From the NCBI GenBank assembly GCA_020629635.1, contig JAHDCX010000008.1, positions 62,001-126,000 of the forward strand: DNA of 64,000 bases. The letters are read 5' to 3'. Position 1 is the first letter of the stretch, and every line of letters starts with the position of its first letter. Of this stretch, positions 288 through 48,427 are shown piece by piece. Under the pieces are notes generated by a model that searched no databases, was not told where the DNA came from, and saw only the letters and a program-made list of their open reading frames with translations. The stretch comes from Acidimicrobiales bacterium. Lineage in GTDB: Bacteria > Actinomycetota > Acidimicrobiia > Acidimicrobiales > SHLQ01. Both the position numbers and the translations under genes were made by a program.

Positions 288-2816
288 CTACCCGGTGACG
301 TATGGGGCAGAGGCTTGCCCGGTGTACAGGGCGGCGACCTCTGCTCCCTCGAAGCTCCGGACTTCGTCACGGACGACCTCTTCGCCGAGGTCGAGGTAGC
401 GGAGCCCGTCGGTGGTCTTGGTGATCGACTCGACCCGTACGAACGAGCCTCCGTGGTGCTCAGCGAAGTCGGCGAGTGCGATGAGCTTGTTGCGGGCATC
501 GGCGAGATGGTCGCCGTGCGGATCGACGATGGATGCCGCCAAGGTGCCGTTGTCGAGGCGAGAGATGACTACGAAGTCGGGTTGAAGTGACGTCCACCGG
601 CCGTCGTCGCGCTGATAGGCAATCCGAAGCGCTGCGGGCGTCGCTCTCGATGGGTTGCGGTACCAGGCGACAGTCGTTTCGCGGGCGATCTCGGTCTCGA
701 TCACCTCGGTCTCCCAGCTGTTCAGCTGTGCGGGGAACATTCCCTCGGCGTCGCTGAACAGGTGCTTCGCGAAGACCGGAAGTGGCCCTGTGGATCCCGC
801 AGTCGCGGTGGTCAAGTTGTCTCGCAGGTCGATGGTTGCTGCCTCCGGGGCGGTCGTCATCTCTTGCACGCGGCGATAGGCGTCGCGGGTCGACCCGGTG
901 GTGTTCTTGATGGCGACGGCGTGATCGCTCAGCCGGGCTTGTACCCACGCAGTCGCAGCAGCATCGAGCGCGCCCAGAACGCCGCTCACGCTGAACAGCG
1001 CGGCGACCTCGACGCGGACCGACAGGGTGTCGGCGTCGTCGCCGGCCCTGTCGACGCGATACCGGTAGTAATCCTTACCTGCTCCTTCCGGCACCGAGCT
1101 GATGACCTTGCGTGTGTCGCGGTCGAGGTCGGCGAGGTGGGTCGCAATTTGGCGGGTGGACCGCTGCACGGCCTGGCCTTGGGCATCCAGAACATCGGTG
1201 GCGACGTCGGTCGTCTCGAAGTCGGCGACTTTCGCCTCGACCTCGTCGGCGTACTTCGCTGCCTGGCCGTCGAGTTCGGAGTTCAGCACCTTCGTGAGCT
1301 GCTGGCCTGCATCGGCGACGAGTGCGGATCCTGACACGTCATCGCAGAGCAGCTGTGCCAGCTTTCGTGCGCGACGCAACGGGCTCGCCAAGGTGTCAGG
1401 GGTTGGGATGCTCGGCAGCGACTCGACGAACTCGAACACTTGCGCAGGGAGCGAACCGTTTCGCTCGAAAGTCTTCGGGTCCCGACTGACTGTCGCGCCG
1501 ACGCGGCCGTCACGGCCGCTGGCGCCTTCGCCCTCGAGTTCCGCCTTGATCGTTTCGAGCGCAGCCCTGTTGAAATTCGGCAGGTAACACGAGACCGAGT
1601 TCAGCGCGTCGTCGGTGGCGATCCTGTGGGCAAGCGGCTGACGCACCATGCGGCCGACGATCTGGGCAATGTGCGTGGCGTCCTTCGCTGGTCGCTCGGA
1701 GTACATGACCTCGGCTCGAGGGCAGTCCCAGCCGGTCGAGATCGCCGTCTTCGCCAAGACAACTCGGATGTCGTCATCGGACTGGATCGACTCCGGGGAG
1801 ACCCACCGGATGGTTCGCGATGGCAGCGCGATCGTTTCGTGCTCGCCGAAGACGTTCACGACGGCGTCGGCATGCAGGCCTGGCCATTCGGCATCGATGA
1901 CAGCCATCAATTCGGTCAGCTTCGAGTCGGACGCCTTGTCCGGCACCTGCACGACCATCACAGGAAGCACCGAGGGCTCGCTCTCCTCGGCGGCGTACGT
2001 TGCCCAGCGAGCCTCGTAGTCGAGCGTTGCCTTCACTGCCTCGCGCAACAGCGTCGTCGAGAACGTTCCCGACTCGTCGGGTTGGTCGATCCCGATCTCG
2101 TCCTTGACGAGTCCCGAGGCCCGGACAAGGTCGATGTCGACCTCGACAGCCGGATACTGCGTGCGCTCGTCGAGCCCCGACATCGCGGCGGCGAAACGGT
2201 CGATCGTTGCGGAGATCCCCCACACGGCGGGAACCGGCGGGTTGGTGCCCGGCTGGCCGTCGATGATGCGCTTCACGATCGTCTTGCGGTCCCGCGACGA
2301 CTTCATGCCCTTGTGGGCCTCGTCGAGCACCAGGTAGAGGTCGACCCGACCGTCATTGATCGTGTTCGCGATGATGTCCCACATCGAGTACTGCCGCTTG
2401 TTGCTCGAGCCCTGTGCCAGCCCGGCGTTCTTCGAGAGCTTCTGGACGTTGAGGAAGTAGACCCGACCCGGAGAAAGCTGGGAGTCCATGAAGTCGTTGT
2501 CGATGGTGTAGAGCTGATTGACCGCCAACATGTCCGAGGCGGCGAGCATCTTGTTGCGCGTCTGGCTGTTGAGAGCAGGGTCGTCGGTGACCCACAAGAA
2601 GCAGGCCCGAGGATCAGCCTCGACACCGAGGTCAGCCGATCCGTGGAATGTTGCCTCGATGACCGCCGTGGCGATCACCGTCTTGCCCGAACCCGTGATC
2701 GCCGACAGTGCGAACGATGAACGGTAGCCGCCGCTCAAATCGTGGCGGGCCCGCTTCAGACGGTCGAGGCACCCAACTGCTGCCTCGCGCTGATAGTCGA
2801 ACAGCTCGAACCTCAT
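288..2816 (-). CDS. Type III restriction enzyme Res-like DEAD/DEAH helicase
   Basis: This 842-residue protein is an SF2 helicase of the type III restriction (Res) kind, expected to translocate on DNA with the methyltransferase encoded just upstream. Walker A is TGSGKT at residues 41-46, the DEAH box is at 165-168, motif III SAT at 202-204, and the arginine-finger motif QIVGRMVRQ lies near 390. The C-terminal 100 residues contain PDF followed by DPHGDH, where type III nucleases normally have PD...(D/E)xK, so the nuclease site looks altered. The start codon overlaps the methyltransferase stop (ATGA, 2813-2816), which implies translational coupling. I infer a restriction or related antiphage role. 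Confidence 0.88.
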   Translation of the reverse strand: MRFELFDYQREAAVGCLDRLKRARHDLSGGYRSSFALSAITGSGKTVIATAVIEATFHGSADLGVEADPRACFLWVTDDPALNSQTRNKMLAASDMLAVNQLYTIDNDFMDSQLSPGRVYFLNVQKLSKNAGLAQGSSNKRQYSMWDIIANTINDGRVDLYLVLDEAHKGMKSSRDRKTIVKRIIDGQPGTNPPVPAVWGISATIDRFAAAMSGLDERTQYPAVEVDIDLVRASGLVKDEIGIDQPDESGTFSTTLLREAVKATLDYEARWATYAAEESEPSVLPVMVVQVPDKASDSKLTELMAVIDAEWPGLHADAVVNVFGEHETIALPSRTIRWVSPESIQSDDDIRVVLAKTAISTGWDCPRAEVMYSERPAKDATHIAQIVGRMVRQPLAHRIATDDALNSVSCYLPNFNRAALETIKAELEGEGASGRDGRVGATVSRDPKTFERNGSLPAQVFEFVESLPSIPTPDTLASPLRRARKLAQLLCDDVSGSALVADAGQQLTKVLNSELDGQAAKYADEVEAKVADFETTDVATDVLDAQGQAVQRSTRQIATHLADLDRDTRKVISSVPEGAGKDYYRYRVDRAGDDADTLSVRVEVAALFSVSGVLGALDAAATAWVQARLSDHAVAIKNTTGSTRDAYRRVQEMTTAPEAATIDLRDNLTTATAGSTGPLPVFAKHLFSDAEGMFPAQLNSWETEVIETEIARETTVAWYRNPSRATPAALRIAYQRDDGRWTSLQPDFVVISRLDNGTLAASIVDPHGDHLADARNKLIALADFAEHHGGSFVRVESITKTTDGLRYLDLGEEVVRDEVRSFEGAEVAALYTGQASAPYVTG

Positions 2817-4918
2817 GAGCCCGCCCCGGTGTTGATAGCGAACGTCGACAAGTAGTTCTCGTAGAGCCGAACCACGTCGACACCGTCAGGAAGCTCTGCA
2901 GCGACGTTGGCGAACTCCGATGCCGAATCGGTGACCACGAACACGTGAGTCAGCGATTCAGGGAGCTTCTCGACAAAGGTCCGCCACCGATCCGAGTTGA
3001 AGAGCACTGCGTAGTGCTCGCTCATCACGTACGGCTTCCGGCGACCGGCGCTGTCGTGAGACTCGGTCAGCACTGGCCCGACCGATCCGGCGCGAATCCA
3101 GAGCAGTGGAGCGATGGCCTCGAACGCCTTGTCCAGTTCAACAGCCTCGGCATCGAGGTACTCGAGCTCCACGAACTCCACGTTCTCCTCGAAGCCCTCC
3201 GCCATCGGAAACTCGTCAGTGAACTTGTAGTCGCCGTTCACCGGCTCACCTTCGGGCGTGATTCCGGTGATCGCAGCCTGGATCCGAGGACGGGTGATGT
3301 ACTCAAAGATCCCCAAGCGCTCCCACGCGGCGTCGCCGGTGCGATGACCGGCAGCGGCGAGACGCCGTGCCTCTTCCTCGGACACCTCGTTGTTCGTGAC
3401 CACGATGGAACGGCGGGTGCCGCCATCCTGTCGGTTGAGCCTCGCAACCGCGTGGGCGGTGGTGCCCGAGCCGACGAAGAAGTCCAGGACGATTGCATTT
3501 GGCTTGCTCCCGACGGCAACTCGCAGCGTGTCTTCTACTGCGTACAGCGACTTGGGGTAGGGGAAGTCGCGCCCTGGAATAAACCGTCGGTTGAGTTTCG
3601 TCCCGTAATCGCGAGCGAAGTGAGACCGGAGGTTCCAGACTGTTGCCGGTGTCGAGGTATTTGCAGCTCCGTCTGCAAGGGCGACCTCAAGGCCGCCGTA
3701 CTGATCGCGGCCGGTGACGACAAAGGTGCCTTCCTCGATCTTGCGAAGGGTTCCTGGGCGCATATAGGTGATCGGCCGACTCTTCGTTTCCGGATTCCAC
3801 TGACCTAAGCGCGCTGTGCCAGCTGCGAGGAACTCTCGCATCTTCGACGAGCTGAAGCGCCAGGTTTGCTCTCGGCCCGAGGTTGCCAAGGGCCACAGCA
3901 CAGTTGCCCCCGCGGGGGGTTGGTACTCGTCGATGGGTTCGTCGGGTTCTAGTGGCTCTCCGACTGAGAGCAGGTCCCCGGTTTCGCCGTCGAGGTGGAC
4001 TGGATAGAAGAGGTTGGGTCGCGCCTCACGAAGCGCAGAGCCTGGGCCCGTGCGTATCGCGGAGAACCACAGTGTCCCTGTTGTTGCGTCCTCCTTGGCC
4101 TCTTCCAGCATGCTGGTGATCCATCGCGCGGTGACGGCGTCGCCGAAGAACGCGAAGAAGATGTTCTCCTCGACGCGCGAGAGCCGACCTGGGCGAGTGG
4201 ATCCGGCGTGGTTCGTCACCGCAGTGGCCATCTGAATCTCGGCGGAACGGAACGTCTGCTCAAGCAGGAGCTCCAGCTTCGAGCGTTCCTTCTCGTCGAT
4301 CGTGACGATCAGCACCGAGTCCTCGGGATTCAGCAGCTTCTTCGCCAACAGCAGTCGGCGCTGCATGAAGGCGAGCCATTTCGAGTGGCGGTAGGCGTCG
4401 TCGCCGTCGACGTAGTCGTTGTTGTACTTCCAGTCGCGGGCGCCGGTGTTGTAGGGCGGGTCGATGTAGATGCAGTCGACCTTGCCGGCATGGGTGAACT
4501 GGAGGGCTTCGAGGGCGTGGTAGTTCTCTCCCTTGATGACGACATGTGCCGGCTTGTCGCCGCCACGCTCGATTGAGCCGAGTCGCTTCAGCCCCGGGTA
4601 GATGGGCTCGCCGAACTCGGCCACCGCGACGAGGTCCTCGACCGGCACGGTCTCCTCCCCATCGGGCCCGGCGAGCATTGCGTGGCCGCTGCGCACTCGC
4701 AGGACGACGCGTTGCTCGTCCTCCATACCGTCCCGGCGAACCACCTTGGTCCCACGTCGGATGCCGTGCTGGGGAAGCGCGACCCGTTCGGGAAGGTGTT
4801 CCTCGAACACGAGCCCGAACTGCCGCTTCTGTCGAAGCTTCGTGATCTGAGCCGCCAAGTCTCGTCGGAGCGCTTCGTCATCGACCCGTGCCAGAAGCGC
4901 GTCGAGCTCGTCAGCCAC
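2813..4918 (-). CDS. Site-specific DNA-methyltransferase, type III Mod-like (adenine, beta class)
   Basis: This 701-residue protein is an amino-methyltransferase of the type III Mod family, expected to transfer a methyl group from SAM to adenine and to give the specificity of the R-M pair. Motif IV DPPYNTG starts at residue 153 and the SAM-binding FVGSGTT motif follows near residue 484; that order (IV before I) defines the beta class. The start is GTG at 4918. It overlaps the helicase gene by four bases. Upstream are 170 bp without a clear gene, then a truncated co-directional gene, so part of the original operon has been lost. Confidence 0.9.
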   Translation of the reverse strand: MADELDALLARVDDEALRRDLAAQITKLRQKRQFGLVFEEHLPERVALPQHGIRRGTKVVRRDGMEDEQRVVLRVRSGHAMLAGPDGEETVPVEDLVAVAEFGEPIYPGLKRLGSIERGGDKPAHVVIKGENYHALEALQFTHAGKVDCIYIDPPYNTGARDWKYNNDYVDGDDAYRHSKWLAFMQRRLLLAKKLLNPEDSVLIVTIDEKERSKLELLLEQTFRSAEIQMATAVTNHAGSTRPGRLSRVEENIFFAFFGDAVTARWITSMLEEAKEDATTGTLWFSAIRTGPGSALREARPNLFYPVHLDGETGDLLSVGEPLEPDEPIDEYQPPAGATVLWPLATSGREQTWRFSSSKMREFLAAGTARLGQWNPETKSRPITYMRPGTLRKIEEGTFVVTGRDQYGGLEVALADGAANTSTPATVWNLRSHFARDYGTKLNRRFIPGRDFPYPKSLYAVEDTLRVAVGSKPNAIVLDFFVGSGTTAHAVARLNRQDGGTRRSIVVTNNEVSEEEARRLAAAGHRTGDAAWERLGIFEYITRPRIQAAITGITPEGEPVNGDYKFTDEFPMAEGFEENVEFVELEYLDAEAVELDKAFEAIAPLLWIRAGSVGPVLTESHDSAGRRKPYVMSEHYAVLFNSDRWRTFVEKLPESLTHVFVVTDSASEFANVAAELPDGVDVVRLYENYLSTFAINTGAGS

Positions 4919-5088
4919 GTGTGGCCTGTCGAGTCGGCTGGCAGGGATCTGTCATTCGCATCACGCCGCTCGACTATAGGAGTCGCCAGGCGCCTGGAGG
5001 GGAAACGGATGAGGGTTGACGGCGGGTCCCGCCCGCCAGCCGCGCTCCGATCGCCAGGCTCCTCTCGAAGTACTGCTCGCGCTCCCGA

Positions 5089-7273: not shown

Positions 7274-9358
7274 TCACGCCGTCGGATGAGCGGCTCGAAA
7301 CAACTCCTCGGCTCTCCGGTCACGGAGCCTGTCGGGGTTGGCCTCAAGCTGTCGTAGCGACGACGAGATGAAACCGGACATCTTCGCTGGAGCTCCGGAG
7401 CGGAGAATCGGCAACAACATCAGTGGCCGAACGTGAACGTGGTGGCGGTTGGGCATCAGCCTGATCGCTGGCCGTAGGAGGTTCAGCGCGACTCCCACAG
7501 CCTTCTCGTCGTTGCGCTGAAGCGAGTCGAGATAGCGGAGGGCCATGACGTCACTCCACGGCAGACCTGGCAGCGCCTCGGCCGTGAGCAGCCGGTCAGG
7601 CTTGTTGATGGCGGCCGCGAGCACGGCTGTCTGGATGCGAGCGTGCGACTTTGGTTCGCACCGACTGGCCACCAGGTTCACAACGTCGTCATGAAGCTCG
7701 TGATCGCCGAACTTCGCGATGACCGGCACTGCCGCCGCGGCCAATCGGTCGGCCAGAGTCCCCGCTCTTTGTCCGGGCGGATCGATCTGATCCCGGACGA
7801 GGCGCCAGGTGCTAGTCGCAATCGCCGAGTGGCCGGATTCGCCCAGCGAATTTGGGGCTGATCCGATCGTCTCGAGGATCAGCAGCGGGACGTCTCCGTA
7901 GATATCGGATACCTCGGAGGCGAGCCTCAGGAGCTCCGCCGCTGTGGCCTCGGTCAGCGGGAATGAACGAACGTACTCGAGCAGCTGCGTGACGCTGTCG
8001 GGCAGAGCCCGCAAGTCGGCCAATGCCTCGGTCGTGAACTGGCCGCAGCCAGCTCGCCTAAGCACTGCGTAGTAGCGCCGAAGGACGCGGTCCCAGCGGC
8101 GCGGCTTGTCCAGGAGTGCTCGGTGAGCCTCGAATCGCAAGGAGAGCTCCTGGAGCAGCTCGTCCGGCGGCGACATCTGACGCAGTGGCCCGTGTTCGAG
8201 CGATGCCAGCTGCTGCTCGACGTCCTCTAGCCAACCGTTCTCCTCCGCCATTGCGTTCCTGAGGTACGTCTCGGTGGTGACGACACGAGTCTTGGCTGTG
8301 TTGGGGTAGAGACCAAGCGGCTCGAGCGCCCGTTGCAGCCGTGCAATCAGGCGATGCCCCATCTCAACGCTCTCGGCACCAATCACGAAGTCGTCCATGA
8401 ATCGGCTGTACAGAAGCGCCTCGCCTTCGGTGTCGAAGTACCGGTCAACGCCAACAAGCAGGCTGTGGGCGATCGCTCTACTGGAGTCGAAGCCCTCCTG
8501 CGGGATGCCCATCGTCGGGGAATCGGCGTAGCCGGGGTGCGGTAGCGATCGGCGGATCAATGAGATGCAGAGTCGGACGACCTCCTTCTCGAGCGACGTG
8601 TGGCTGTGAAGGTGTTCCCGCACGACTTCAAGGTCGATCGAAGTAAAGAAGTTGGCGATGTCGCTCTCAACGACGTAGGGGCACGAGTCACAGATGTGGG
8701 CGATGATGCCTTGCTTCTGGAGCCAGATCTTGAACCAGTCGTCCTCGTAGCTCTCGGTGTCCGAGAGTGCGATCGGGCGGCGCTTCTTCTCGCTCGTCTC
8801 GTCCTCATCGTTCGCGCGTGTTGGCGTTGAAGCCGATGCTTCTTTCCCTTCGACCTCGAACTCGGGCTCGTCGTGATTCTCATCAACTTCGCCATCAACC
8901 CGCGCCCGAGCCGCGAGCTTCGCCAACCTGTCGGCGTCCTCCAGTGTTGCCCCGGTCCAGGTGCGCAAGTCCCGCTTCAAGTCTGGCTCAGCTCGCAGGA
9001 CGAGAGCGCGATACACGAGAGCGTCGCGCGGCGACATCACCGCAAGGGGCCGGGATAGGCCGGTCGCCTTCGCTCCTCGCACGATGACCGCTGGCTCCGG
9101 CGTGAACGTCGCTGTCAGGAGATCCTGGGAGAGCCTCTCGATGAAGGTGTGGAGACCCCACTCGTATGCGGCGAACTGAACCGGGTCTTGTGCGAGGTAG
9201 AAGTCTCGGAGGCGCGCAGAGCGCAGACCTCTCCGAACGTGGCGCTTCCAGACCGCTGAGAGCAGCCCAGGGTCAGCGACCGTGGCCATCGAGGTCTGCT
9301 TCGGCGGCGAAGGCCGTGGGTCCTCTGGCGGCTGCTGGCCGTTCCGATCTCCTGCCAC
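7274..9358 (-). CDS. RNA-directed DNA polymerase, candidate antiphage (DRT/Abi-type) reverse transcriptase
   Basis: The 694-residue protein has an RT palm: SRPLAVMSPRDALVYRALV (RT2), VVESDIANFFTSID (RT3, first catalytic Asp), GIPQEGFDSSRAIAHSLL (RT4), YSRFMDDFVIG (RT5, the FMDD form of YxDD) and LGLYPNTAKTRVV (RT6). An acidic insert lies between RT2 and RT3. About 300 helical residues follow the palm and show no maturase or thumb motifs of group II introns. This layout is known from unknown-group and abortive-infection RTs used in phage defence. The GTG at 9358 opens the frame; ATG at 9289 is an alternative start. It lies between a broken integrase and tRNA-Lys. The family is clear; the defence role is inference. 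Confidence 0.85.
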   Translation of the reverse strand: MAGDRNGQQPPEDPRPSPPKQTSMATVADPGLLSAVWKRHVRRGLRSARLRDFYLAQDPVQFAAYEWGLHTFIERLSQDLLTATFTPEPAVIVRGAKATGLSRPLAVMSPRDALVYRALVLRAEPDLKRDLRTWTGATLEDADRLAKLAARARVDGEVDENHDEPEFEVEGKEASASTPTRANDEDETSEKKRRPIALSDTESYEDDWFKIWLQKQGIIAHICDSCPYVVESDIANFFTSIDLEVVREHLHSHTSLEKEVVRLCISLIRRSLPHPGYADSPTMGIPQEGFDSSRAIAHSLLVGVDRYFDTEGEALLYSRFMDDFVIGAESVEMGHRLIARLQRALEPLGLYPNTAKTRVVTTETYLRNAMAEENGWLEDVEQQLASLEHGPLRQMSPPDELLQELSLRFEAHRALLDKPRRWDRVLRRYYAVLRRAGCGQFTTEALADLRALPDSVTQLLEYVRSFPLTEATAAELLRLASEVSDIYGDVPLLILETIGSAPNSLGESGHSAIATSTWRLVRDQIDPPGQRAGTLADRLAAAAVPVIAKFGDHELHDDVVNLVASRCEPKSHARIQTAVLAAAINKPDRLLTAEALPGLPWSDVMALRYLDSLQRNDEKAVGVALNLLRPAIRLMPNRHHVHVRPLMLLPILRSGAPAKMSGFISSSLRQLEANPDRLRDRRAEELFRAAHPTA

Positions 9359-16687: not shown

Positions 16688-17581
16688 ATGGGTCCGAGAC
16701 ATGAGTTGATGGCCGCCGTCGATGGAGACATCGAACGGTTGATGGCCGAGCACATCGACAAGCGACCGACCTGGTACGCGCACGATCTCGTGCCGTGGGA
16801 AGAAGGGCGCAGCTACGTCGATGAGCCCTGGGACGAATCGCAATGCACCGTCAGTCCGGAGGTGCGTGAGGCGATGGTTCTCAATCTGCTGACCGAGGAC
16901 AATCTGCCCTACTACCACTACGCGATCGCGTCGGAGTTCGGCGAGGACTCGGCGATCGGCCGCTGGACTCGTCGTTGGACGGCAGAGGAGGGCCAGCACG
17001 CCATCGTCATCCGTGATTACCTCATGATCAGCCGCAACTGCGATCCCGTCGCCCTCGAAGACGCTCGCATGCAGACCGTCAGCCGCGGCTGGGACTCGCC
17101 GTGGACCGATCCGATCGACATCTTCGTGTACACCTCGGCCCAGGAGCTGGCCACCCGCGTCTCACACCGCAACACGGGTGTCGTCGCCGACGACGAGACG
17201 GCCTACGAGATCATGAAGCGTGTGGCTGCGGATGAGAACTACCACTTCATCTTCTACAAGGGGATCGTGTCGGCGATGCTCGAACACGACCCGTCGGCGT
17301 GCGTGCTGTCCATGAAGAAGGTGTACGAGAACTTCGCCATGCCGGGGACGGTGGTCCCCAACTTCCGCAAGCGTGCGGCGATCACCGCACGAGCAGGTGT
17401 CTACGACCTGCGCATCCATGCCGAGAAGGTCCTGACGCCGGTGCTGCGGGACTGGGGAGTCAGCGAACTCGAGGGCCTCAGCCCCGAGGCCGACCAGGCT
17501 CGCCACGAGCTGCTCGCCATGCCGGGCACCCTCATCGCCAGAGCCGAGAAGCTCGAACGCCGCCTCGCCAAAGCCGGCTGA
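16688..17581 (+). CDS. Acyl-ACP desaturase family di-iron protein
   Basis: This 297-residue protein matches the ferritin-like stearoyl-ACP desaturase family (mycobacterial DesA type). The expected ligands occur as two helices: a Glu in TEDNLPYYHY near residue 70, EEGQH at 100-104, and in the second half a Glu in SAQELATR and DENYH near residue 187. It should introduce a double bond into ACP-bound fatty acids with ferredoxin and O2. ATG 16688 was chosen because the open frame upstream (from 15818) is antisense to udk. A hairpin at 17599-17616 separates it from the convergent gene. Confidence 0.87.
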   Translation: MGPRHELMAAVDGDIERLMAEHIDKRPTWYAHDLVPWEEGRSYVDEPWDESQCTVSPEVREAMVLNLLTEDNLPYYHYAIASEFGEDSAIGRWTRRWTAEEGQHAIVIRDYLMISRNCDPVALEDARMQTVSRGWDSPWTDPIDIFVYTSAQELATRVSHRNTGVVADDETAYEIMKRVAADENYHFIFYKGIVSAMLEHDPSACVLSMKKVYENFAMPGTVVPNFRKRAAITARAGVYDLRIHAEKVLTPVLRDWGVSELEGLSPEADQARHELLAMPGTLIARAEKLERRLAKAG

Positions 17582-17598: not shown

Positions 17599-17616
17599 AC
17601 CGGCCTACGGGCCGGT
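17599..17616. terminator. Bidirectional hairpin between convergent genes
   Basis: ACCGGCC (17599-17605) pairs perfectly with GGCCGGT (17610-17616) around a TACG loop. It lies 18 bp after the desaturase stop and overlaps the TAG stop of the opposing UGSC gene, so it could end both transcripts. There is no U-run. Confidence 0.5.
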
Positions 17617-18123
17617 GATGGCGGCGATCAATTGATCGACCGTCTCGGCCGCGATCGCCCGCATCTGATCGTCGGTTCGGTCCTGGATCGGGTGCTCGGT
17701 GAAGACGCGAGCCGCATCGAATCCGAGCTTCGTGCTCTGGACTTCGGCCGCATCGACGAAGGGAGCGCTTGCCACGAACACGCCGGGCACGCCGCGGCGC
17801 TCGAGATCGCTGATGTCGTGCACACTGCACGACACGCACGAACCTCAATCGGCGAGCGCCTCGATCACTGCGTCACACGACGTGGCGATCTCGTGGCGGA
17901 GGTCGGTGGGCGCGGGCTTGGCGAACGTCGGTTTGGTGAAGCGACGCACCGTCGCTCCGAGGGAGATGAGACGTGACTCGACCTCGTCGAGGAACACGTC
18001 GCCCCGGGGTTTGGAAATGTCGAGCAACCCAACGGTGAGGCCGGCCAGCGATTCGGGTCGAGTCGTTCGCTCGCGGGCGCTCGGCGCGGTCTCGTCGGTC
18101 GGGTCGAGGACGGTGGTGCTCAT
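17605..18123 (-). CDS. UGSC family protein, probable selenoprotein with Sec at in-frame TGA 17845-17847
   Basis: One frame of 173 codons runs from ATG 18123 to TAG 17605, interrupted only by TGA at 17845-17847 (codon 93). Around it the sequence reads EALAD-U-GSCVSCSVHD, the U-G-S-C motif that names the UGSC (seleno)protein family; cysteine homologs carry C there. A perfect 9-bp hairpin begins ten bases after the TGA, as expected of a bacterial SECIS. Both halves keep protein-like composition across the TGA. The start overlaps the stop of the thioredoxin-like gene (ATGA), with AAGGAG upstream. A thiol/selenol redox role is inferred from the motif and partner. Gene callers will split this gene into two or drop it. 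Confidence 0.8.
17814..17834 (-). promoter_or_regulatory. Candidate bacterial SECIS hairpin
   Basis: On the minus strand TGTCGTGCA, loop GTG, TGCACGACA form a perfect 9-bp stem, extendable by one G-U pair. The loop starts 19 bases after the TGA codon, inside the range known for bacterial SECIS elements (roughly 16-37 nt), and holds the exposed G/U bases that SelB reads. The stem is inside the coding sequence and needs no frame change. Confidence 0.7.
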
Positions 18124-19556
18124 CGGACGATCTCCTTCGTGACCGGCACACTACCCATCGGCCCACTGACCCATCCACCGAAGGTGGAAGAGAACAGGCC
18201 TGCTGGTCCGCCGACATGGACGACGAGCAATCCGCCGGACCGAACCTTGGGCAGCGTCGCTCCCTCGAATCCGAGACCGGTCGGAATGCCCTCGGCGACG
18301 CCGTCGACGCCACGCAGAATTCCGTCGACCTCGATCTCGAGGCGCGAGGTGAGTTCGGTCTCGAAACGCTCACGATCCCAACCGGCATCGCGGAACCGGG
18401 CCATGTGCTCCGGGCAAATGGCGACGATCGTGTCCATGCCGGTGATGCGCGGGTGCACGTTGTTTCGCACGACCATGGCGATCGACTCGGTCAGCCCGGC
18501 GGGGTCCTGGGTCATCTGGTCGAAGATGATCCGAGGGGCTTCGCCACAGAACACCGTGACGGTCGAGACATCGGGGGAGTGGCCGAGCGACTCGGCGAGC
18601 GACGTCCAGGGCGAGCCCTCTTCGTCCTCGGCGAAGCAGAGCCCGACTTTGCCCGGCTGACCGTGGGTCGACCGGTCGACTTCGCCCGGAACGCCCCCGC
18701 CGATGTTGCGGATCACGAGTTGCAGCGCTCTGCCAATCGTCGAGTTCGCCCGGTTTCCCTGACCAAAGACATTCATTCCGGAGTTCATGCCGATCTCGTT
18801 GCGGATCGGGCCGTTGACGATGAGGATCGGCGCAACACCCATCGTGGTTGCCAGGACGCCGTGCATGTTGAACTCGTCCGTGCAGACGGCTTCGACCGCC
18901 GCGATGACCACCGGGAGGTACTCGGGCAGGCATCCTGCCATCACGGCGTTGATCGCGATCTTCTCGACCGTGACGTCTGCGAGGTTGGGAGGCACGGTGG
19001 CGACGACGTCATCGGCGGGCCGAGTGGTCCCACTCAGCATTCGGGCGACTCGTTCGGGGGTCGGTGGAACGACCGGGAGGCCGTCGCTCCACCCTCGGTC
19101 GTACATCGCCTCGAACGGATCCTCGGCCGTGGCGAACTCGATCTGACGGGCACGAAGTCCGTCACCGAAGGCGGCCTCGAGAGCGTCGGCGTGCTCGGGG
19201 TCGACCGACAGCGAGCCGCAACCGGGACGATGCTCGGGGAGCCCGTCACCGAGTTCGGCAATGCCGGTGAAGTCGCGCCATTGATCCACACTCCACCCAA
19301 CGATTCGGTCCGTTTCGGCGCCGTCGGTGACGCGCATCAACGTCGGAACGGTCTCGATCGAGTTGCGCCAGCTCAACTCCAGCGACCTGTCGTCTCGCAC
19401 GCCCGGGATCGACGGAAAACCAGGGTCGTCCTGCGAGAAGACGGTGAGCGAACTCGCACGGTCGAGGTCGGCGAGGACGGGCGCGATCAGCTCGCACGTC
19501 GGACAGTCCTTCTTGACGAAGGCGACGAGGCCATCGGGAAGTGGTGGTGACGACAT
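18120..19556 (-). CDS. Thioredoxin-like domain protein, partner of the UGSC gene
   Basis: The first 95 or so residues look like a thioredoxin fold: FVKKDCPTCELI with the CxxC pair C18/C21, then a VPT cis-proline motif (ETVPTLMRV) and a strand. A long second domain follows, beginning FEAMYDRGWSDGLPVVPPTPERV and including conserved-looking stretches such as AVMAGCLPEYLPVV, LIVNGPIRNEIGMNSG and a Gly-rich C-terminus (SGGLLVVHVGGPAG). I do not know an activity for that domain. The stop overlaps the start of the UGSC gene, so the two are translated together, probably as one redox system. It is divergent from the carboxylesterase gene, 38 bp apart. Confidence 0.75.
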   Translation of the reverse strand: MSSPPLPDGLVAFVKKDCPTCELIAPVLADLDRASSLTVFSQDDPGFPSIPGVRDDRSLELSWRNSIETVPTLMRVTDGAETDRIVGWSVDQWRDFTGIAELGDGLPEHRPGCGSLSVDPEHADALEAAFGDGLRARQIEFATAEDPFEAMYDRGWSDGLPVVPPTPERVARMLSGTTRPADDVVATVPPNLADVTVEKIAINAVMAGCLPEYLPVVIAAVEAVCTDEFNMHGVLATTMGVAPILIVNGPIRNEIGMNSGMNVFGQGNRANSTIGRALQLVIRNIGGGVPGEVDRSTHGQPGKVGLCFAEDEEGSPWTSLAESLGHSPDVSTVTVFCGEAPRIIFDQMTQDPAGLTESIAMVVRNNVHPRITGMDTIVAICPEHMARFRDAGWDRERFETELTSRLEIEVDGILRGVDGVAEGIPTGLGFEGATLPKVRSGGLLVVHVGGPAGLFSSTFGGWVSGPMGSVPVTKEIVR

Positions 19557-47767: not shown

Positions 47768-48427
47768 TCAGTGCTCCCAGTTGGCGGTGAGCTCGGGAGA
47801 GCCGAGCTCCCGATGACGCTTCTCGATCCAGACGGGGGCGCCCGTCGGTTCATCGGCCATCGTTGCTCGGGCGTGGTCGCCGTGCTCGTCCCACACGTGG
47901 CACGAGTTCAGCGTGAACGCCATCGAGAGCGCCTTCTCTTCCGCTGTCCATTCCTGCGCGCCCAGTGCCTGACCGTCGACGTGGGGGAGTTGGCGCATCG
48001 AATAGATCGACTGGATCGCCACGGGCGCCATGGCTTTGAGTAGGGCTCCGATGTGTGTGCATCCCGCTTGGCGCCCGAAGGTGGCGTTCACGAACCGGCT
48101 GAACCCGGCAGCGATCGACTGGCCGACGAGCTGTTGGTACGCGGTCGTGATGCCCGGGCACTCGTGATGAGGGTGCTCGGAGAAGCCCACATCGATGGCG
48201 GCGATCTCGAGCTCGGGGAATCGCAGGGTCAACGAGACGGTCATGTCGTGCACCGGCAACGCGGTGCTGTCGCCCTTGACGAAGAGACCGGCGGGTTTGG
48301 CGTCGATGATTCGCCCGTCGAGCCGGATGGTCGAGTCGTCCACGCGGAAAGACGCCACGTCGTAGGAGCGTGAGTGGATCAACACATCGCCCGAGTCGAG
48401 TGCGTCAGCGTCGTAACGTTGGGCCAT
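47768..48427 (-). CDS. DUF2889 domain-containing protein
   Basis: The 219-residue protein has the DUF2889 pattern: HSRSYDVASFRVDDSTIRLDGRIIDAKP, HDMTVSLTLRFPELEIAAIDV, and CPGITTAYQQLVGQSIAAGFSRFVNATFGRQAGCTH, with conserved Cys. The family function is not established. The start ATG 48425-48427 shares bases with the start of the divergent F420 gene, leaving no leader for either. Start codons further downstream (GTG within DVL) are possible. Confidence 0.85.
   Translation of the reverse strand: MAQRYDADALDSGDVLIHSRSYDVASFRVDDSTIRLDGRIIDAKPAGLFVKGDSTALPVHDMTVSLTLRFPELEIAAIDVGFSEHPHHECPGITTAYQQLVGQSIAAGFSRFVNATFGRQAGCTHIGALLKAMAPVAIQSIYSMRQLPHVDGQALGAQEWTAEEKALSMAFTLNSCHVWDEHGDHARATMADEPTGAPVWIEKRHRELGSPELTANWEH

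Follow-up and report, generated by a model that had tools for sequence, protein, structure and literature searches.

The UGSC selenoprotein family was described by Zhang and Gladyshev in 2008 from ocean metagenomes, in which 255 sequences with selenocysteine (Sec) and 21 with cysteine were found (PMC2398784). With these 255 sequences it ranked in the top five selenoprotein families of the Global Ocean Sampling by number, and in non-marine samples it outnumbered every other family; the same study considered a thioredoxin-like fold likely and reported a selenoprotein in which UGSC is fused to a domain referred to as Unknown_1 (PMC2398784). A 2026 review still lists UGSC among the selenoproteins with a Trx-like fold whose functions are largely uncharacterised (PMC13188914). 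Two other Sec proteins are relevant here, GrdB (PF07355), protein B of glycine/betaine/sarcosine reductase, and PrdB of D-proline reductase (TIGR04483), in which Sec is coupled to thiol-driven reductive cleavage via a proposed selenoether (PMC10298544). Our literature search on selenoproteins of Acidimicrobiia found no paper.

The window analysed here, 64,000 nucleotides of an Acidimicrobiales genome, carries a UGSC gene and, directly upstream of it, a gene that we refer to as the partner (Table 1). Our overall reading, to which we give a probability of roughly 0.8, is that the locus encodes a UGSC selenoprotein working with a thioredoxin-domain partner, probably in a GrdB/PrdB-like manner. 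The UGSC gene is a single frame of 173 codons from ATG to TAG whose sole internal stop is a TGA at codon 93, within the residues A-L-A-D-U-G-S-C-V-S-C (DUGSC being residues 92-96). The numbers given in the first-pass annotation for this frame are exact and apply to the minus strand; read on the plus strand, the interval yields a different, meaningless frame. The prediction that automated calls would split the gene into two short frames is borne out by the table-11 ORFs, which comprise a 92-residue product and an orphan 3' part. The protein scores above the curated cut-offs of both NCBIfam NF041046, 'UGSC family (seleno)protein' (149.9 bits, cut-off 125), and Pfam PF24696 (147.9 bits, cut-off 25). 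It resembles the members of these families over its whole length, in the U-G-S-C motif and in the TGA codon, with no essential difference, and in the family alignment position 93 is U or C while G94 and C96 are invariant. The gene is thus an ordinary member of the known UGSC selenoprotein family, and the initial call of a probable selenoprotein in such a family was correct but not new, since the family had been described earlier (PMC2398784; NF041046).

Table 1. Features of the UGSC locus and of the second UGSC copy in the same genome (positions in the window unless a contig is given).
Feature	Position	Strand	Details and basis
UGSC-family selenoprotein gene	17605..18123	minus	ATG 18123-18121, TAG 17607-17605; 172 residues, Sec93; translated with TGA = U
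Sec codon UGA, codon 93	17847-17845	minus	Seen in the sequence and by comparison of homologues
bSECIS core	17813..17835	minus	10-bp stem with one G-U; 3-nt apical loop GUG 17825-17823; from fold, covariation, codon constraint and consensus criteria
Extended SECIS fold, predicted	17801..17848	minus	Lower stem including the UGA encloses the core hairpin; MFE structure
AAGGAG Shine-Dalgarno-like site	18132..18137	minus	8 nt before the UGSC start; seen in the sequence
Partner gene	18120..19556	minus	478 residues, directly upstream of UGSC; ORF
Partner N-terminal thioredoxin-like domain	19257..19556	minus	First 100 residues; C18-x-T-C21 and V70-P71 invariant
Partner C-terminal domain	18123..19256	minus	No Pfam/NCBIfam family; C209 and H384 invariant
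Second UGSC copy (L013)	G000:C31:487235-487762	minus	TGA-bearing UGSC domain

The hairpin downstream of the TGA was found as first reported, a perfect 9-bp stem with a GUG loop that starts 19 nt after the UGA, and a G-U pair added to the nine Watson-Crick pairs extends it to 10 bp. Published bSECIS criteria call for a loop of 3-9 nt with a G in its first two positions, a stem of 4-16 bp, a spacing of 16-37 nt and an MFE of at most -7.5 kcal/mol (PMC13188914); the window hairpin agrees with all of them (3-nt GUG, 10 bp, 19 nt, -26.3 kcal/mol), which answers the bSECIS check suggested by the first-pass annotation. The folding energy of the 51-nt region, -26.3 kcal/mol, corresponds to z = -4.0 and is matched by none of 200 shuffles. 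Among 43 distinct sequences the core pairing is maintained, more strictly than that of the outer stem, and compensatory changes occur at G18-C30 (to A-U in four sequences) and at C21-G27 (two sequences with G-C). None of 500 shuffles, a control that ignores relatedness, attained the same covariation score. Codon choice is constrained as well: Ser100 is encoded by AGT in 81/81 sequences, as against 5% of Ser codons elsewhere in the family, Val101 by GTG in 80/80 (background 36%) and Thr97 by ACG in 67/69 (background 22%). At Asp92 (17848-17850) GAT is used in 79 of 81 sequences, compared with 30% of the family's Asp codons elsewhere, a bias that possibly belongs to the lower SECIS stem or to the recoding context.

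Rfam gave no match at the hairpin at the gathering threshold. Perfect 9-bp hairpins alone are not rare, 10 of them occurring in the 64-kb window, but only two of the 159 internal TGAs flanked on both sides by 60 or more open codons have a stem of at least 9 bp at bSECIS distance, the UGSC codon and a TGA at 47770 (minus strand, 13-bp hairpin). The latter was rejected as an ordinary stop that, with its hairpin, separates a DUF2889 gene from a gene for an acyl-CoA thioesterase. Elsewhere in the window, an Rfam ASdes match (RF01781, 46.7 bits; 16988-17055, minus) lies antisense to a fatty-acid desaturase gene and likely reflects conserved desaturase coding sequence, not an RNA gene. A 694-residue reverse transcriptase (7274-9358, minus), adjoining tRNA-Lys and tRNA-His genes, matches PADLOC RT_UG13a (E 2.2e-99), a DRT candidate anti-phage family.

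The source genome (4.45 Mb, 37 contigs, 96.5% complete) encodes the whole selenocysteine machinery for which the first-pass annotation proposed to search. selA and selB lie side by side on contig C28; tRNA-Sec scores 65.1 bits (gathering score 47) and has the anticodon TCA (UCA); and selD (L011, G000:C13; 362.7 bits) has an in-frame TGA of its own, in HGAG-U-GCKLDP. The absence of selB or tRNA-Sec, named at the outset as one of two outcomes that would refute Sec decoding, is therefore not what we observe. selA is found in 17 of the 18 genomes with a TGA-type UGSC, as against 2 of 12 others; the one TGA-type genome with no selA match is a draft of 94% completeness (G036). Ten related loci have selB, selA or both just upstream of the partner-UGSC pair, as in L073 from the cultured Desertimonas flava, where selA (187-1434), selB (1472-3151), the partner (3506-4948) and UGSC (from 5001) follow one another. 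A further candidate selenoprotein gene of the source genome (L146, from G000:C12:50623 onward) encodes a short protein that is GrdB/PrdB-like and whose reading frame contains a TGA, in V-P-V-U-P-V-C, and similar single-domain TGA genes are present in many actinobacterial genomes.

Codon 93 is TGA in 80 of 80 related loci, several of which are near-identical and hence not 80 independent events, and the protein is conserved on both sides of it. These loci come from a collection of one genome per species, mostly Acidimicrobiia together with Chloroflexi, 'Deltaproteobacteria' and Sulfitobacter. Among them, three records titled as Bifidobacterium breve MAGs (L079-L081) resemble the Acidimicrobiia-like loci, and their labels are probably wrong. 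Four distant homologues, inspected in a phylum sample of 296 genomes (L102, L116, L119, L120), have TGC or TGT at this codon, so that the alignment recommended in the first-pass annotation shows either U or C at position 93. The AGTGTGCA hairpin is absent from these four inspected Cys-type homologues, and in L102 the equivalent region folds worse than shuffles.

Could the TGA nevertheless be a genuine stop, or have arisen through pseudogene decay or faulty sequencing, so that only a 92-residue protein is made? TGA does serve as a stop in the same operon, at the end of the partner gene. However, chance is excluded by the presence of TGA at the same codon in all 80 related loci, where both flanks of the protein are conserved, and its recurrence in 80 separate records means that it is not a sequencing error; the covarying SECIS and the complete Sec machinery likewise speak against termination, which we regard as highly improbable. 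Nor is there much to be said for UGA being read as another residue, for instance as Trp through a changed code, or by readthrough: the open frame is all that speaks for it, whereas the homologues lacking TGA carry Cys and not Trp, genes of the source genome end in TGA, and tRNA-Sec and SelB are present, so that we give this reading hardly any credence. The machinery, the bSECIS and the homologues instead support the original proposal that this organism decodes UGA as Sec, and on this comparative evidence Sec is almost certainly inserted at codon 93.

The partner gene was overlooked in the first-pass annotation. Its stop codon TGA overlaps the start of UGSC (ATGA), which suggests that the two are translationally coupled. 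A relative of the partner adjoins UGSC in 79 of the 80 related loci (within the flanks, L092 being the exception) and in all 19 loci of the genome search; in a clustering of conserved neighbours it is the only near-universal neighbour of UGSC. A MutY-like gene and other neighbours, named from reading of their sequences, look like chromosomal synteny. The N-terminal domain of the partner matches PDB thioredoxins in a profile search (best E 2.5e-5) and in VIA structure comparison (Z up to 9.1 over 84 residues, 2.5 A), and a structure search with the partner model returned matches filled by this domain. Beyond thioredoxin-like families, the partner matches no family in Pfam or NCBIfam; C209 and H384 of its C-terminal domain are present in 19 of 19 divergent loci. 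This C-terminal domain is probably the Unknown_1 of Zhang and Gladyshev 2008 (PMC2398784).

In the second UGSC copy of the source genome, L013, a single frame joins the TGA-bearing UGSC domain to a domain homologous with the C-terminal one of the partner, and the thioredoxin part is lacking; this copy most likely represents the UGSC/Unknown_1 fusion type (PMC2398784). The window locus differs from this arrangement in having two separate, overlapping genes and an extra thioredoxin domain in the partner. No thioredoxin domain could be detected beside the divergent UGSC copies, which counts against our reading of the pair. A comparison of the UGSC and partner profiles revealed no similarity (0.5% probability). 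Because of their adjacency and of the fusion in L013, we consider it very likely that the partner acts together with UGSC.

A diverse UGSC alignment matches the Sec domains of GrdB and of short actinobacterial PrdB-like proteins, Sec on Sec, and all the GrdB and short PrdB-like proteins compared have TGA at the aligned position. The profile scores, 40.4 and 43.2, exceed the maxima of column shuffles (20.5 and 18.0; 60 each) and the scores of reversed profiles (14.6 and 12.7), and they remain at 35.8 and 39.7 when the U-G-S-C-x-x-C columns are masked. Single hhalign comparisons of UGSC with GrdB and PrdB reached E-values of 1.4e-5 and 4.4e-6, with a probability of 25-88% that varies with the alignment used, and weak reciprocal matches were obtained with single sequences (L013 against PrdB, E 0.015; GrdB against UGSC, E 0.013). 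In both groups Sec stands between a beta strand and a helix, and a conserved E-x-x-G-[IV]-P stretch after Sec is common to them. UGSC nevertheless falls below the family cut-offs: the window protein has no PF07355 match, and L013 scores 14.7 bits against TIGR04483 (cut-off 300). It also pairs with a thioredoxin-fused protein, and this partner shows no match in Pfam or NCBIfam to pyruvoyl-forming subunits (GrdE/PrdA), so that any relation to them would be a distant one. Taken together, the profiles point to UGSC as a distant relative of the GrdB/PrdB Sec domain, a link of which we found no earlier statement in the open-access papers searched.

The AlphaFold2 model of UGSC (pLDDT 91.7, pTM 0.86) contains five strands (30-35, 58-63, 85-91, 114-119 and 138-142) alternating with helices, and U93 is placed just after strand 3. 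A thioredoxin fold, taken as beta-alpha-beta-alpha-beta-beta-alpha with the redox motif after the first core strand, does not describe this model; the fold is thus predicted to be alternating beta/alpha and not the thioredoxin-like one previously considered (PMC2398784). Structure searches of the PDB returned generic alternating beta/alpha folds only, the best match being a chain of the MCR activation complex (Z 11.4, 132 residues, 3.3 A), followed by receiver domains and lumazine synthases. No GrdB structure was among these matches, which is evidence neither for nor against the relation proposed above, and the UGSC profile, searched against PDB sequences, found a single match without significance (E 0.4).

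Thioredoxin-fed, Sec-catalysed reduction is the best mechanism that we can propose for the UGSC-partner pair. SelB, tRNA-Sec(UCA) and the downstream hairpin almost certainly direct the ribosome to insert Sec at UGA codon 93, and the mature protein is predicted to be a five-stranded alternating beta/alpha domain with U-G-S-C lying where strand 3 passes into the following helix. Judging from conservation, U93 would be the catalytic selenolate, acting as nucleophile, and C96 the resolving thiol. The adjacency, fusion and conservation described above suggest that the CxTC thioredoxin domain of the co-translated partner may return the selenenylsulfide to the reduced selenolate, and that the C-terminal domain, with its invariant Cys209 and His384, probably helps to form the active site.

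Which reaction would be catalysed is a more tentative matter. In GrdB and PrdB, too, Sec chemistry is driven by thiols and involves a separate subunit as partner, and the profile similarity to their Sec domain led us to propose that the pair works like these reductases; nothing in our analysis marks an anaerobic amino-acid fermenter, which we count against such chemistry, and we put its chances somewhat short of even. Alternatively, UGSC may be an ordinary thiol oxidoreductase or peroxidase, in which a Sec93-C96 selenenylsulfide, fed by thioredoxin, would serve to reduce peroxides or disulfides without cleavage of a carbon-heteroatom bond. The U-x-x-C motif and the thioredoxin domain of the partner are what such an enzyme would display, and most prokaryotic selenoproteins are thiol oxidoreductases (PMC2398784); yet the fold model does not resemble thioredoxin, GrdB and PrdB are the closest relatives by profile, and a simple oxidoreductase would leave the partner's large and conserved second domain unexplained, so that we hold this alternative to be a real possibility but less likely than not. 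Thioredoxin-fed Sec catalysis can also be taken further in the GrdB/PrdB direction, with UGSC and its thioredoxin-fused partner forming a branch of the GrdB/PrdB superfamily that has so far gone unrecognised: the two would make up a Sec reductase of two components that reductively cleaves a carbon-heteroatom bond of a small molecule with electrons delivered by its own thioredoxin domain, in Actinomycetota, Chloroflexi and some Proteobacteria that are not anaerobic amino-acid fermenters. In this full form the proposal is speculative, and we deem it unlikely.

The UGSC gene is an example of how stop-codon annotation truncates selenoproteins. To the known family this locus adds a partner gene, a revision of the predicted fold and a distant kinship with GrdB/PrdB. 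A fixed partner, a predicted non-thioredoxin fold and a distant link to glycine and proline reductases together offer a concrete and testable starting point for the UGSC family.
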